Source: Bacillota bacterium (lineage in GTDB: Bacteria > Bacillota > UBA4882 > UBA10575). From it: a stretch of DNA of 52,745 nucleotides. Position numbers and translations under genes: made by a program. Of the stretch, positions 6,446 to 30,071 are shown piece after piece (position 1 is the stretch's first letter; the number at the start of each line of letters is the position of its first letter). The notes beneath the pieces are model-generated. The model searched no databases. It was given only the letters and a program-made list of their open reading frames with translations, and was not told where the DNA came from. The DNA is taken from positions 1-52,745 of the forward strand of contig JAAYGU010000080.1 of assembly GCA_012727535.1 (NCBI GenBank), given 5' to 3'.

Positions 6446-6698
6446 CAAAAAAACCGTCCGCAAAGGGACGGTGATTAGACCGTGGTACCACCCATTTTGG
6501 TAAGGTTCACTGCAGTCGCTCCTTACCCACTCAAGACCTGATAACGGTGGTAATCCGTCCGGACTTACTACAAATTCGGCCCGGAGGCTCGAGGCTGATC
6601 TTCATACGGCCGTAGTTATCCCTTTCCACCAACCGGGACTCTCTGTCTACCCGTTACCGCACTACTCTTCCTCTCATCGCCTGATGACTTGTATAATC
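6446..6698 (-). promoter_or_regulatory. T-box riboswitch of ileS
   Basis: The leader carries the T-box core GGGTGGTACCACGG (about 6481-6494), whose variable base T would pair with discriminator A73 of tRNA-Ile. Upstream is a long stem I with the GTGGAAAGGGA stretch. An ATC triplet at 6597-6599 sits where the specifier codon should be, matching isoleucine. A terminator stem (CCGTCC / GGACGG, 6454-6471) followed by seven to eight T residues ends just before the ileS SD. Uncharged tRNA-Ile should favour the antiterminator and switch ileS on. Confidence 0.93.
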
Positions 6699-25363: not shown

Positions 25364-25924
25364 CTACAAATCGCGGATCCGAGTTAAGATGGCAGGCGTA
25401 ACCCCGGCAATCACCAAGGATTTAGCCAGATCCCCAAGCATAAAGGGGACCATCCCCATAGTAAGCTGCACTAAGGAAACCGGGGTTTTAAATATTAGTT
25501 GATTAAGTAGGTAAAGGTAAGGGATGGCCACCAGGTAAATTGCCCCCATTCCGACCACGGCAATGCCCAGGCATTTGTAGAAGGATGGCTTAGTCAGCAA
25601 ACTGCTCAGCCGCCCGACGACTGCCGCCGCCAATACAAACCCAAGAATAAAACCGAAGGTTGGCCGTAATATATACCCCGGTCCTCCGCCCCCGGTAAAA
25701 ACCGGGACTCCACTCAAACCAAGGAGCAAGTAAACCCCCTGGCTCAGCGGAGCATCTCGCGGGCCCAAAATTAACCCGGCCATAATCACCATGAGGGTCT
25801 GGAGGGTAAAAGGAATAGGCGGAATAAAATCAACCCGTAAATAAGCACCAATCCATGTTAATGTAGAAAACAAAGCAATTAAAACCATCCGTTCTGTACG
25901 GTTCCGTTTCTCCTTCTCCATCAT
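25364..25924 (-). CDS. bioY: biotin transporter BioY
   Basis: A 186-residue membrane S-component that binds biotin, with about six helices. Typical stretches are FIPPIPFTLQTLMVIMAGL, GPRDAPLSQGVYLLLGLSG and FTGGGGPGYILRPTFGFILG. ATG 25924 directly follows the birA stop. No dedicated bioMN energising genes are near, so it would share an ECF module or act alone. It is co-transcribed with birA from a BirA-controlled promoter. Confidence 0.96.
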   Translation of the reverse strand: MMEKEKRNRTERMVLIALFSTLTWIGAYLRVDFIPPIPFTLQTLMVIMAGLILGPRDAPLSQGVYLLLGLSGVPVFTGGGGPGYILRPTFGFILGFVLAAAVVGRLSSLLTKPSFYKCLGIAVVGMGAIYLVAIPYLYLLNQLIFKTPVSLVQLTMGMVPFMLGDLAKSLVIAGVTPAILTRIRDL

Positions 25925-26908
25925 CTATCCCTCCGTTAAGTACTGAGCTGTTAAATTCACATCGCCGGCAATTACCTTCCGGCTCTGGCCGTCCTGGTCG
26001 ATAATTAAACCACCGTCTTCGTCAATCGCGACCGCTATTCCAGAAAAGGTCTGTGCGCCATTGGTCACGGTAACATGCCGGCCCAAAGTATAGGTATACT
26101 GGCGGCAGTACTCCAGAATCCGGTCAAACCCGTCGGTTAGCGCCCGGAAATATTCTACCTCCAACACTTCCAAATAACGGCGGAGCAAAGCCTTCCGGTC
26201 AACCGGGCTTTTCTTGATCATCCACAAGGAACCGGCCTGCTCCCGGATTTCCTCCGGAAAATCCTCCGGTTTTTGGTTCACATTCAGACCCACCCCTAAA
26301 ACAACCGATTCCAGACGCCCCATCTCCCCGGTTAACTCAGTCAAGATCCCCGAAAGCTTCCGTCCGTTCCAATAAAGGTCATTCGGCCATTTAACCAACG
26401 GCCTCACTTCTAATTCGGCAAAAATAGCCTGGGAGAGGGCGACCGCCGCCACTAAAGTCAACTTCGACAGCTGAGCCGGGGGTAACTGGGGTCTAAGAAT
26501 CAAACTCATCCAAATCCCCGTTCCGGGCGGTGAGAACCACCTCCTGCCCAACCGGCCCCGGCCCGCGGTCTGGCTCTCCGCCAGAACAACCGTTCCTTCG
26601 GGACAAGAAACCAGCAACTCTTTCGCCCGCTGGTTGGTGGAGGATAGTTCATCATAATACTCGATCGTTTTACCGAGCAGTTTGGTCCGGAGCCCTTGGG
26701 CAATCTCCCAAGGATAAAGCCTGTCCGGCCGGGAAAGAAGTCGATATCCCTGCCGGGGATAAGCTTCAATTTCATAACCCAAGCCCCGGAGGGTCTCCAC
26801 CTGCTTCCAGACTGCCGCCCGCGTCACCCCCAATTGCACGGCTAGCTCTTGCCCAGAGAGAAATTGGTGCTCAGTCAATAGACCAACCAGTCGTCCTAAT
26901 GTCATCAC
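25925..26908 (-). CDS. birA: biotin-protein ligase and biotin repressor
   Basis: A 327-residue two-function protein. The N-terminal helix-turn-helix (about 1-60) reads LSGQELAVQLGVTRAAVWKQ. The central ligase domain has TAGRGRLGRRWFSPPGTG, VKWPNDLYWNGRKLSGIL and GVGLNVNQ. The C-terminal small domain ends at DVNLTAQYL. It makes biotinyl-AMP and transfers biotin to carboxylases. The HTH shows it is the repressor class. The start is GTG 26908 or the adjoining ATG 26905. Confidence 0.95.
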   Translation of the reverse strand: MMTLGRLVGLLTEHQFLSGQELAVQLGVTRAAVWKQVETLRGLGYEIEAYPRQGYRLLSRPDRLYPWEIAQGLRTKLLGKTIEYYDELSSTNQRAKELLVSCPEGTVVLAESQTAGRGRLGRRWFSPPGTGIWMSLILRPQLPPAQLSKLTLVAAVALSQAIFAELEVRPLVKWPNDLYWNGRKLSGILTELTGEMGRLESVVLGVGLNVNQKPEDFPEEIREQAGSLWMIKKSPVDRKALLRRYLEVLEVEYFRALTDGFDRILEYCRQYTYTLGRHVTVTNGAQTFSGIAVAIDEDGGLIIDQDGQSRKVIAGDVNLTAQYLTEG

Positions 26909-27187: not shown

Positions 27188-27216
27188 TTGCATTACGCCA
27201 TTAACAAAGGTACAAT
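27188..27216 (+). promoter_or_regulatory. promoter of the TM1266-ABC transporter operon
   Basis: TTGCAT (27188-27193) and TACAAT (27211-27216) are 17 bp apart. The start would be near 27223, at the foot of a long hairpin. Confidence 0.65.
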
Positions 27217-27361
27217 AAAGGTAGACATCTGCGGAGTCAGGTCCGCCTTACTCCAAAGATCATCTACTCTATCTAACCTGAGGCCAAGGCTTTGCCTGAA
27301 GCAAAGGAGTGTCTTCCCTGAACACCAAGAGAAGAAGCCTGTCTTAGGATAGGCTTTTTTT
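27217..27361 (+). ncRNA. structured leader RNA, candidate riboswitch or attenuator
   Basis: Three hairpins precede an intrinsic terminator. The first is long (27221-27267), with paired arms GTAGA, ATCT, GGAGT, AGG against CCT, ACTCC, AGAT, TCTAC and small internal loops. The second is CTTTGC / GCAAAG (27290-27306) and the third GTGT / ACAC (27309-27325). The terminator is AAGCCTGTC / GATAGGCTT (27335-27356) with a T run to 27361. AGGCTT at 27287-27292 duplicates the terminator 3' arm and could pair with its 5' arm as an antiterminator. I do not recognise a known class (not TPP, SAM, FMN, glycine, cobalamin or T-box). Confidence 0.6.
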
Positions 27362-27376
27362 GATGGAGGTTTTGCG

Positions 27377-27628
27377 ATGGAAGCCAAAAGAATAGGGGTC
27401 ATTGCCGTCGTAATTGAAGATCCGGCTGCTGTACAGGCCACCCTCAATCAGTGGATCAGTGAGGCCGGATCAATTATTGTTGGGCGCATCGGTATTCCCT
27501 ATCGGGAAAGAAATGTTGCCCTCTTAGCTTTATTAGTCGACGGATCAAACGATGAAATCAACGCTCTAACCGGTCGTTTAGGTACACTTCCCGGCGTCAA
27601 TGTGCGGGCGGCCTTGGCGAAAAATTAA
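27377..27628 (+). CDS. TM1266 family small regulator (iron-only hydrogenase system regulator-like)
   Basis: An 83-residue protein. It reads IGVIAVVIEDPAAVQATLN, IIVGRIGIPY and VALLALLVDGSNDEINALTGRLG, matching the short ferredoxin/ACT-like TM1266 family. Family members often neighbour [FeFe]-hydrogenase maturation genes, but none is in this window. ATG 27377 has GGAGG upstream. It is first in an operon with the ABC transporter, which suggests a ligand-sensing role. That role is inferred only. Confidence 0.85.
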   Translation: MEAKRIGVIAVVIEDPAAVQATLNQWISEAGSIIVGRIGIPYRERNVALLALLVDGSNDEINALTGRLGTLPGVNVRAALAKN

Positions 27629-27646: not shown

Positions 27647-28612
27647 ATGCGTAAAAATTCTCTTCTCGCCTTATTCCTGGTCTGTCTTTTGCTCCTTACC
27701 AATTCCTTGACGGCCCGCGAAGAGTCTACGGTGGAGGTAATGGTTCTCTCCGGCGTCACCGGACTATCTTTCTTACCCCTGCTGGAGGAGGAGCCTTCCA
27801 TCGAACCGGGGATCAAAATCAACTACACGGTCGTCAAAAGCCCCGACCAGATGAGGGCCAAGATTATTTCCGGTGAAGCCGACATCGCCGCGGTCCCGAC
27901 CAATCTCGCCGCTATCCTTTATAATAACGGGATTCCCATTCAATTAGCGGCCATTACCAATTGGGGAGTTATGTATCTCGTGGAGCAAGGCTCTCAGATC
28001 ACTTCATGGTCTGATCTACGCGGGAAAACGATTGGCGTTACCGGCAAGGGTAGTACCCCGGATATCCTCTTCCGCTATTTTCTGACCGTGCATGGACTCG
28101 ATCCAGAACGGGATGTTCAAATTCAATACTATCCTACTCCTGTGGAATTAGCTCAGCTCGCGATTGCCGGTAAAGTTGAGATCGCTACCCTGCCGGAACC
28201 ATGGGTGACCGAAGTCGTGACCAGAAACCCCAGCTTTAGAGTCTGCCTTGATTACCAGAAGGAGTGGGAGCGCTTAGAACAGAGGGAAGAGTCCTATGCC
28301 CAAAGCGCCCTGGTCGTCCAGACCGCTTTGGCGCAAAAACACCCAGAATTTTTACAAAAATTCCTCCGCCAAGCGGATGCCGCCAGCGCTTGGGTGGTCA
28401 ATAACCCGGCCGCCGCCGGAAAACTGGCCCAAACCCACATTATGATCTCCGCTGAAGCAGCAGGCGCAGCGATTCCCCGGTGCAATCTTCGGTTTAAGGA
28501 GGCGGCCTTAGTCCGCGCCGAAGTGGAGTATTATTTGGCGAAACTTCTCTCTTTCCAACCGCAGTCGATTGGAGGGAAGCTCCCGGATGAAGGATTCTAC
28601 CTACAAAAATAA
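27647..28612 (+). CDS. NitT/TauT-type ABC transporter substrate-binding protein
   Basis: A 321-residue periplasmic-binding protein (NMT1/TauA-like fold). The signal peptide (LLALFLVCLLLLTNSLTA) has no lipobox Cys, so it should be released as a soluble protein, unusual for a single-membrane Firmicute. The mature protein has GEADIAAVPTNLAAILY, LRGKTIGVTGKGSTPD and VEIATLPEPWVTEV, the usual ligand-contact stretches. The ligand is unknown; sulfonates, nitrate-like anions and pyrimidine/thiamine precursors are handled by relatives. It is followed by permease and ATPase. Confidence 0.87.
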   Translation: MRKNSLLALFLVCLLLLTNSLTAREESTVEVMVLSGVTGLSFLPLLEEEPSIEPGIKINYTVVKSPDQMRAKIISGEADIAAVPTNLAAILYNNGIPIQLAAITNWGVMYLVEQGSQITSWSDLRGKTIGVTGKGSTPDILFRYFLTVHGLDPERDVQIQYYPTPVELAQLAIAGKVEIATLPEPWVTEVVTRNPSFRVCLDYQKEWERLEQREESYAQSALVVQTALAQKHPEFLQKFLRQADAASAWVVNNPAAAGKLAQTHIMISAEAAGAAIPRCNLRFKEAALVRAEVEYYLAKLLSFQPQSIGGKLPDEGFYLQK

Positions 28613-29342
28613 TTTAATTACCCTCAGTTCCATACTCCTATTAGTCCTTGGCTGGGCACTAGCAGCCAAGCGGGCTGGGAAGGAGATCATCCTTCCCAGC
28701 CCGCTCGTTACCTTTAAACAACTGCTCAGCTTATTAACCTCGGCTAATTTCTGGCAACATCTCAGCGCCACCCTGCTCCGGGGATTAGCCGGTTTCGGCC
28801 TTTCTTACTTAATGGGTTTAATGATTGGTCTCTTTTCTGGTCTTAACCGTCACTTTAAAACCTTTTTTCAACCATGGTTAACCGCAATCCGCAGTACCCC
28901 CTCGATGGCCCTGATCCTCTTGGCTTTAATCTGGTTTAAGTCCAATGCGGTTACCTTATTCGTCACTTTCCTGGTTGTCTTCCCCATTGTCACCCAGAAT
29001 GTTAGCGAGGGTCTCCAGCAAGTTGACCCCCGGCTCAAGGAGCTTGCCCGCCTTTATCAGGTCAGCACTACCCGGGTGCTCCGCGAGATGTATCTCCCGG
29101 CCATCCTGCCTTACCTCGCCACTGGTGCCGCGGCCGGCCTTGGTTTAACCTGGAAGGTAATGATCGCCGCCGAGGTACTGGCCAACCCACCCACGGGGAT
29201 TGGGACTCAGATGGATACGGCCCGGATCTTCCTACAAACCGCAGAGGTTTTTGCCTGGACGATCGTGGTGATCACGATCAGCCTCTTTTTTGACCGTCTG
29301 CTCTATTCCCTTTTGCGCCGCCAATTATTTTATTGGGAGTGA
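28587..29342 (+). CDS. NitT/TauT-type ABC transporter permease
   Basis: A 251-residue permease with six helices (SsuC/TauC-like). It shows TAIRSTPSMALILLALIWF and the cytoplasmic loop ELARLYQVSTTRVLREMYLP, followed by LPYLATGAAAGLGLTWKVMI. The ATG at 28587 overlaps the binding-protein gene by 26 bp; an in-frame TTG at 28569 is an alternative. Its TGA stop is in the same frame as the following ATPase. Confidence 0.88.
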   Translation: MKDSTYKNNLITLSSILLLVLGWALAAKRAGKEIILPSPLVTFKQLLSLLTSANFWQHLSATLLRGLAGFGLSYLMGLMIGLFSGLNRHFKTFFQPWLTAIRSTPSMALILLALIWFKSNAVTLFVTFLVVFPIVTQNVSEGLQQVDPRLKELARLYQVSTTRVLREMYLPAILPYLATGAAAGLGLTWKVMIAAEVLANPPTGIGTQMDTARIFLQTAEVFAWTIVVITISLFFDRLLYSLLRRQLFYWE

Positions 29343-29348
29343 TCGGCC

Positions 29349-30071
29349 ATCAGCCTGACTGAATTTAGTTTAAACCGGATAACAAAAGCTTATGGAGAAC
29401 TTCAGGTCTTAGACGGCCTTTCTTTAGAGGCCAAAACGAACAGCATCGTCGCTTTCCTTGGCCCTTCCGGTTGTGGAAAGACGACTTTACTTTCGCTAAT
29501 CGCCGGCTTAAAAGCACCAGATAGCGGAGAGATTCTGGGGATGGAAAACAAAACCCTGAGTTACCTCTTTCAGGAACCCAGGTTGCTTGATTGGTTGACC
29601 GTCGCCGGTAATCTTGGTTTTGTCCTGAAAGACCGTCTGACCGGTGCAGAACTAGAGAAGAGGATTGACTATTATCTGAGGCATATGGAGATGCTGGCCT
29701 ACCGCGATGTTTACCCCCGGAGGCTCAGTGGTGGACAGCGTCAACGGGTCGCCATGGCCCGGGCGTTGGCTTACCCTTCCCGTTTGTTGTTGATGGACGA
29801 ACCCTTTAAATCACTTGATTTAGGTTTAAAATTTGAGTTAATCAACCGTTTTCTTCAGCTCTGGACCAGTGAGCCCCGGACGGTGCTCCTGGTGACCCAT
29901 GATCCGAAAGAAGCTCTCCTCCTAGCCGATGAGATTTACGTCCTTTCGGAAAAACCGGCGCAAATCAAAGGTTATCACCAAATCTCCGTGCCCCGCCCCC
30001 AGCGGCAGCTGGCCGATCTTGCCCTCCTCCAACTGGAACAAACGATTATCCGGGAATTAATTGACCAGTAA
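29349..30071 (+). CDS. NitT/TauT-type ABC transporter ATPase, no canonical start codon
   Basis: A 240-residue ATPase. The reading frame opens right after the permease stop (29342) and gives SLTEFSLNRITKAYGELQVL, then Walker A LGPSGCGKTTLL, signature LSGGQRQRV, Walker B LLLMDEP and the switch VTHD. Before Walker A there is no in-frame ATG, GTG or TTG; the first ATG (29541) would delete Walker A. ATC 29349 (nine bases after GGGAG) or CTG 29355 fits family starts. Rare initiation, a base error or readthrough of the permease TGA are all possible. The rest of the gene is intact. Confidence 0.82.
   Translation: MSLTEFSLNRITKAYGELQVLDGLSLEAKTNSIVAFLGPSGCGKTTLLSLIAGLKAPDSGEILGMENKTLSYLFQEPRLLDWLTVAGNLGFVLKDRLTGAELEKRIDYYLRHMEMLAYRDVYPRRLSGGQRQRVAMARALAYPSRLLLMDEPFKSLDLGLKFELINRFLQLWTSEPRTVLLVTHDPKEALLLADEIYVLSEKPAQIKGYHQISVPRPQRQLADLALLQLEQTIIRELIDQ

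Follow-up and report, generated by a model that had tools for sequence, protein, structure and literature searches.

Locus and operon

The window, meaning the whole 52,745-nt stretch of Bacillota DNA analyzed here, carries an operon that begins with a TM1266-family gene and continues with the genes of an ABC transporter. Ahead of it lies a leader that runs from a 5′ hairpin through a conserved core to an intrinsic terminator, and then to TM1266. The features are as follows.

27188–27216, plus strand: candidate promoter, TTGCAT (27188–27193), 17-nt spacer, TACAAT (27211–27216), from sequence and relatives
27227–27260, plus strand: 5′ hairpin with outer stem AUCU/AGAU, a 2x2 internal loop, then GGAGU/ACUCC and AGG/CCU (z = -3.2; covariation)
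27277–27307, plus strand: core element, a putative aptamer, CCTGAGGCCAAGGCTTTGCCTGAAGCAAAGG (21 invariant columns; covariance-model matches)
27287–27293, plus strand: AGGCUUU, 5′ strand of the proposed antiterminator, within the core (7 bp with GAAGCCU)
27331–27360, plus strand: intrinsic terminator hairpin and U-run (-17 kcal/mol, z = -4.4)
27334–27340, plus strand: GAAGCCU, 3′ strand of the proposed antiterminator, also within the 5′ arm of the terminator (arm pairing, shuffle control)
27377–27628, plus strand: TM1266-family protein, first gene (TIGR03959 95.6 bits, PF21699 91.3 bits, both above cut-off)
27647–28612, plus strand: ABC substrate-binding protein, NMT1-like (PF13379)
28587–29342, plus strand: ABC permease (PF00528)
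29349–30071, plus strand: ABC ATPase, start codon uncertain (PF00005)

The TM1266 family (TIGR03959) takes its name from the iron-only hydrogenase system. The binding protein resembles substrate-binding proteins for PQQ, sulfonates, thiamin precursors and nitrate. Its structural model (pLDDT 91.6) has as its closest solved fold the uncharacterized 3hn0, followed by PqqT with PQQ, TauA and SsuA; judged by this predicted structure, its nearest counterparts bind molecules that are small and mostly anionic, a cofactor among them. Where its start codon would be expected, the ATPase frame (29343–29541) lacks an ATG, GTG or TTG, and relatives indicate ATC near 29349. Divergent birA-like and bioY-like genes adjoin the operon (25364–26908, minus strand), and a birA-like gene lies beside the leader in most relatives of the same family.

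Transcription probably starts near 27223, as read from the sequence. An earlier, sequence-only reading of this DNA had described a good promoter. A promoter is present but only a modest one; its spacing and a similar -35 box recur in relatives, most of which share the layout TTGCNN-17-TANAAT. The leader features lie where that reading had placed them, and the leader, the 5′ hairpin and the terminator are all more stable than shuffled sequences (z = -3.1, -3.2 and -4.4, respectively; the leader folds at -53.7 kcal/mol vs -40.5 ± 4.3 for shuffles). What it took to be two short hairpins is instead a single conserved 31-nt element, CCUGAGGCCAAGGC...GCCUGAAGCAAAGG.

Distribution

We count 18 copies of the core, spread over 17 genomes. 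Sixteen of these genomes are among the 29 of the class, and the last belongs to another class. A blastn search of 61 relatives turned up leaders both within the family and in further families of the class. Core covariance models (R1 and R2) matched in 15 of the 29 class genomes, and G002, whose core is split, brings the count to 16. The genome of another class (G139, from two samples of 398 phylum genomes) has the whole leader before TM1266-ABC, and G018 carries a second core copy. All matches well above chance precede a TM1266-ABC or ABC operon (17 of the 18 copies are upstream of an ABC operon), except for one that precedes hydEGF.

TM1266 itself is present in 28 of the 29 class genomes, including every class genome with the RNA. 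It is the first gene downstream of many copies and lies outside the operon in several relatives (L006–L011). Several g2 genomes (L145, L149, L150, L153) have a TM1266 gene apart from the transporter, near prephenate-dehydratase-like and phosphate-permease-like genes. The core was not found at the separate TM1266 loci or the hydrogenase loci of relatives, nor upstream of more distant ABC orthologs. Orthologs of the transporter that fall outside the clade bearing the RNA (in G004 and the f5 family) likewise have no such leader. Distant orthologs of the f5 family (L215, L216, L219, L221) follow a carB-like gene (carbamoyl-phosphate synthase large subunit), a neighbor that may hint at the cargo of the f5 transporters.

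Scanning 84,980 species genomes for an exact pattern returned 73 stretches, of which 11 were strong in the model scan (at least 52 bits) and two more, L043 and L067, are divergent true members. Named records among the pattern-scan matches are Hydrogenispora; the others are Bacillota MAGs. L029, L048 and L066 were rejected, as all three lack the leader layout and L029 lies within a ribosomal-protein-like gene. The remaining stretches were taken as chance on score alone. Two weak matches in the phylum, L196 and L197, overlap genes of other kinds and were also rejected. As far as the scan pattern can reach, the RNA seems restricted to this part of the Bacillota.

Conserved structure of the leader

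By sequence, the core is the best-conserved part of the leader, with 21 invariant positions among 16 aligned sequences. Its two halves are near-repeats of CCUGARGCNAAGG, and its predicted fold is a pseudo-symmetric hairpin, (((...((..((((...))))...))..))). The RNAalifold consensus is (((...((..(((......)))...))..))), and all eight pairs are retained in 16 of 16 cores. These pairs show no variation, so they leave no covariation signal by which the core fold could be confirmed. Folded alone, the core is weak (z = -0.5). In G002, an insertion of about 75 nt with its own hairpin separates the near-repeat halves (leader L014), and both halves are intact.

The compensatory changes in related leaders that the sequence-only reading had proposed as a check on the stems are found in the 5′ stem. 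In an alignment of 14 sequences, which takes in L013 and the copy before hydEGF (L110), six pairs are changed on both sides, for a total of 15 cells. Slid controls gave at most four cells and shuffle controls 4.7 doubly changed cells, and none of 500 shuffles reached either the cell count or the covariation score. The hairpin is extended to 27220–27268 in the window genome, and single-sequence folds of L013, L110, L111 and L006 show the same architecture. Most leaders with the hairpin have 58–66 nt between promoter and core. The hairpin is absent from L015, L043 and L067, where the core lies 8–21 nt past the -10 box. Since these three leaders begin almost at the core, the 31-nt core alone may suffice as a minimal unit.

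A terminator is found at the equivalent position in related leaders. As the sequence-only reading had noticed, AGGCTT occurs both in the core (27287–27292) and in the 3′ arm of the terminator (27351–27356), and either copy can pair with AAGCCT at 27335–27340. The alternative AGGCUU/AAGCCU pairing is borne out, with the correction that the terminator contributes its 5′ arm to it, not its 3′ arm. In most leaders, the core AGGCUU(GUC) pairs with the terminator 5′ arm (GAC)AAGCCU over 5–9 bp. The pairing total is 322, compared to 223 ± 11 for shuffled arm sequences, and none of 1000 shuffles reached it; a reduced set of 11 leaders gave 184 vs 139 ± 8, again with 0 of 1000. For these totals, the pairing arms were set by hand. 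The terminator/antiterminator logic is thus supported across relatives, with pairing above the shuffled-arm controls.

Individual leaders vary in how they pair. L005 has a matched U-to-A change in the antiterminator. Six of the 18 copies (L004, L111, L012, L013, L043, L067) have only about 5 bp, and an AGGCC:GGCCU pairing is available in L111, L012 and L013. L110 pairs through a different core strand (GGGACGG:CCGUCCC).

Comparison with known RNA families

We searched the 4227 covariance models of Rfam 15 at the gathering score and at E ≤ 10. The leader had no match at the gathering level and nothing credible at E ≤ 10, in line with the earlier remark that no known class fits. Neither of the two outcomes that the sequence-only reading had named as refuting it, unconserved stems in related leaders or a match to a known class, was observed. 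Its best match was Ysr49, at 18.2 bits vs a gathering score of 95. No riboswitch family matched at either threshold, the TPP, HMP-PP and xanthine (NMT1) riboswitches included. Elsewhere in the window, the same scan finds two tRNAs and a T-box leader (6461–6686, minus strand, 121 bits).

Several known systems share part of this anatomy. The preQ1-I riboswitch, at about 34 nt, is a short aptamer near the transcript start that overlaps its antiterminator and terminator. Small riboswitches of this kind resemble the leader in having a very short conserved core and overlapping terminator control, but preQ1-I-type riboswitches differ from it in sequence and fold. TPP and HMP-PP (thiS) riboswitches are alike in their terminator control and in their place upstream of thiamin genes or of NMT1/ThiY-like transporters; however, they accompany thi genes, whereas this RNA accompanies TM1266 and hydEGF and matches neither covariance model. 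The RAT hairpins bound by LicT-type proteins are likewise internal-loop hairpins of about 30 nt that overlap a terminator, but this operon has no PTS or antiterminator protein gene, and there is no sequence match. The NMT1 motif (xanthine riboswitch) is named after the NMT1-type transporter genes downstream of it (PMC7373994), a gene context shared with this leader, which differs in having no Rfam match.

We found no RNA controlling [FeFe]-hydrogenase maturation or TM1266-linked transport in the literature covered, which lay largely outside subscription journals. The main texts of a 26-genome and a 50-genome RNA survey do not mention hydrogenase.

Possible hydrogenase connection

The second copy in G018 (L110) sits immediately upstream of hydE-hydG-hydF, which encode the maturases of [FeFe]-hydrogenase (HydE TIGR03956 364 bits, HydG TIGR03955 640 bits, HydF TIGR03918 531 bits). 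A model built without this copy scores it at 38.6 bits (E = 6.8e-6 for one genome). The whole leader is present there, including the 5′ hairpin. The association with hydEGF is one locus; the maturase loci of other relatives have no copy. Among class genomes, HydG falls into two score groups (about 640–700 and 480–505 bits), which are perhaps two enzyme lineages.

Four PF02906 hydrogenase genes are present in the window genome (G000, 98% complete); one of them was checked and has the cysteine motifs. HydE and HydG had no match in this genome, and HydF none above the cut-off. HydG and HydF were also not found in G001, G002 and G013, which share the leader and have [FeFe]-hydrogenase catalytic-domain genes. 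Completeness of these four genomes is 94–98%, and HydE was searched by its own model in G000 only. We treat the missing maturases as a lead because these are draft MAGs, in which neighboring genes can drop out with one contig.

Interpretation

The leader is almost certainly a conserved, structured cis-regulatory RNA. We consider it fairly probable, on comparative sequence grounds, that it is a metabolite riboswitch of a class in none of the reference libraries searched. Two features of a riboswitch-like transcription attenuator are present: a conserved structured 5′ UTR element stands before functionally linked genes in 18 copies, and the proposed antiterminator, which shares bases with the core, and the terminator are mutually exclusive. 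In the mechanism we propose, when ligand is scarce the core AGGCUU would pair with AAGCCU, the terminator would not form and the TM1266-ABC operon would be read. Bound ligand would hold the core folded and sequester AGGCUU, so that the terminator forms and transcription stops; both the ligand and this direction of control are inferred.

Other explanations account for part of these observations. A protein might bind the core and control termination in the manner of LicT/SacY-type antiterminators on RAT hairpins, with TM1266 as the first candidate. The short core that overlaps the antiterminator would fit this, its near-repeated halves suit a dimeric protein, and TM1266 is a small ACT/NikR-like ‘putative regulator’ at the head of many copies and encoded in every class genome with the RNA. 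However, TM1266 is far more widespread in the class than the RNA (28 vs 16 of 29 genomes), sits outside the operon in L006–L011, and would leave the 5′ hairpin as a second conserved domain to explain; to our knowledge, no RNA binding has been described for the family. We regard protein control as unlikely. Less likely again is a structured leader with no ligand, acting by constitutive attenuation or as a transcript-stabilizing hairpin. A terminator alone cuts read-through, such leaders occur in many operons and the lone core folds weakly, but 21 invariant positions in 31 nt, kept across classes and reused before hydEGF, go beyond the needs of a plain terminator, and the alternative pairing is retained. 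A leader peptide or a T-box, the classical forms of attenuation, would also place a terminator and an antiterminator ahead of a transporter operon, yet we give this explanation hardly any credence: by eye, no ORF in the relatives’ leaders looks conserved, for which reason a leader peptide was rejected, and Rfam (RF00230) places a T-box at 6461–6686 and none at the leader.

The remaining alternative overlaps with the riboswitch reading as a sub-case of it. Here the ligand is a transporter cargo unrelated to hydrogenase, and the copy before hydEGF is a chance recruitment. The predominance of ABC operons downstream speaks for this, as do the resemblance of the binding protein to PQQ, sulfonate, thiamin-precursor and nitrate binders, and the more distant transporter orthologs that have no RNA, several of them adjoining the carB-like gene. 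Against it, many copies stand before an operon whose first gene belongs to a hydrogenase-system family (TIGR03959), and hydEGF carries the entire leader with its 5′ hairpin. We hold this to be rather unlikely, if somewhat less so than control by a protein. The sequence-only suggestion that the ligand is what the transporter imports is plausible but incomplete, since the second RNA copy precedes hydEGF in one relative.

Within the riboswitch reading, it is because of that copy before hydE-hydG-hydF that a ligand tied to assembly of the [FeFe]-hydrogenase H-cluster suggests itself. We put this forward tentatively, as a possibility that falls somewhat short of probable. Plentiful ligand would then shut off its own synthesis together with uptake of the ligand or its precursor, much as vitamin riboswitches place synthesis and import under joint control. 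A more specific version is a long shot: the RNA would sense an H-cluster intermediate, and the TM1266-linked importer would supply a cofactor precursor, letting bacteria without HydE, HydG and HydF fill their [FeFe]-hydrogenases by salvage. A synthetic diiron complex activates isolated apo-hydrogenase (PMC7399679), and such salvage is therefore chemically conceivable.

Should the leader prove to be a riboswitch, few would have a core as small as its 31 nt. The identity of the ligand would then reveal the substrate of this unassigned transporter, and could expose an unrecognized metabolite or a salvage route in H-cluster assembly.
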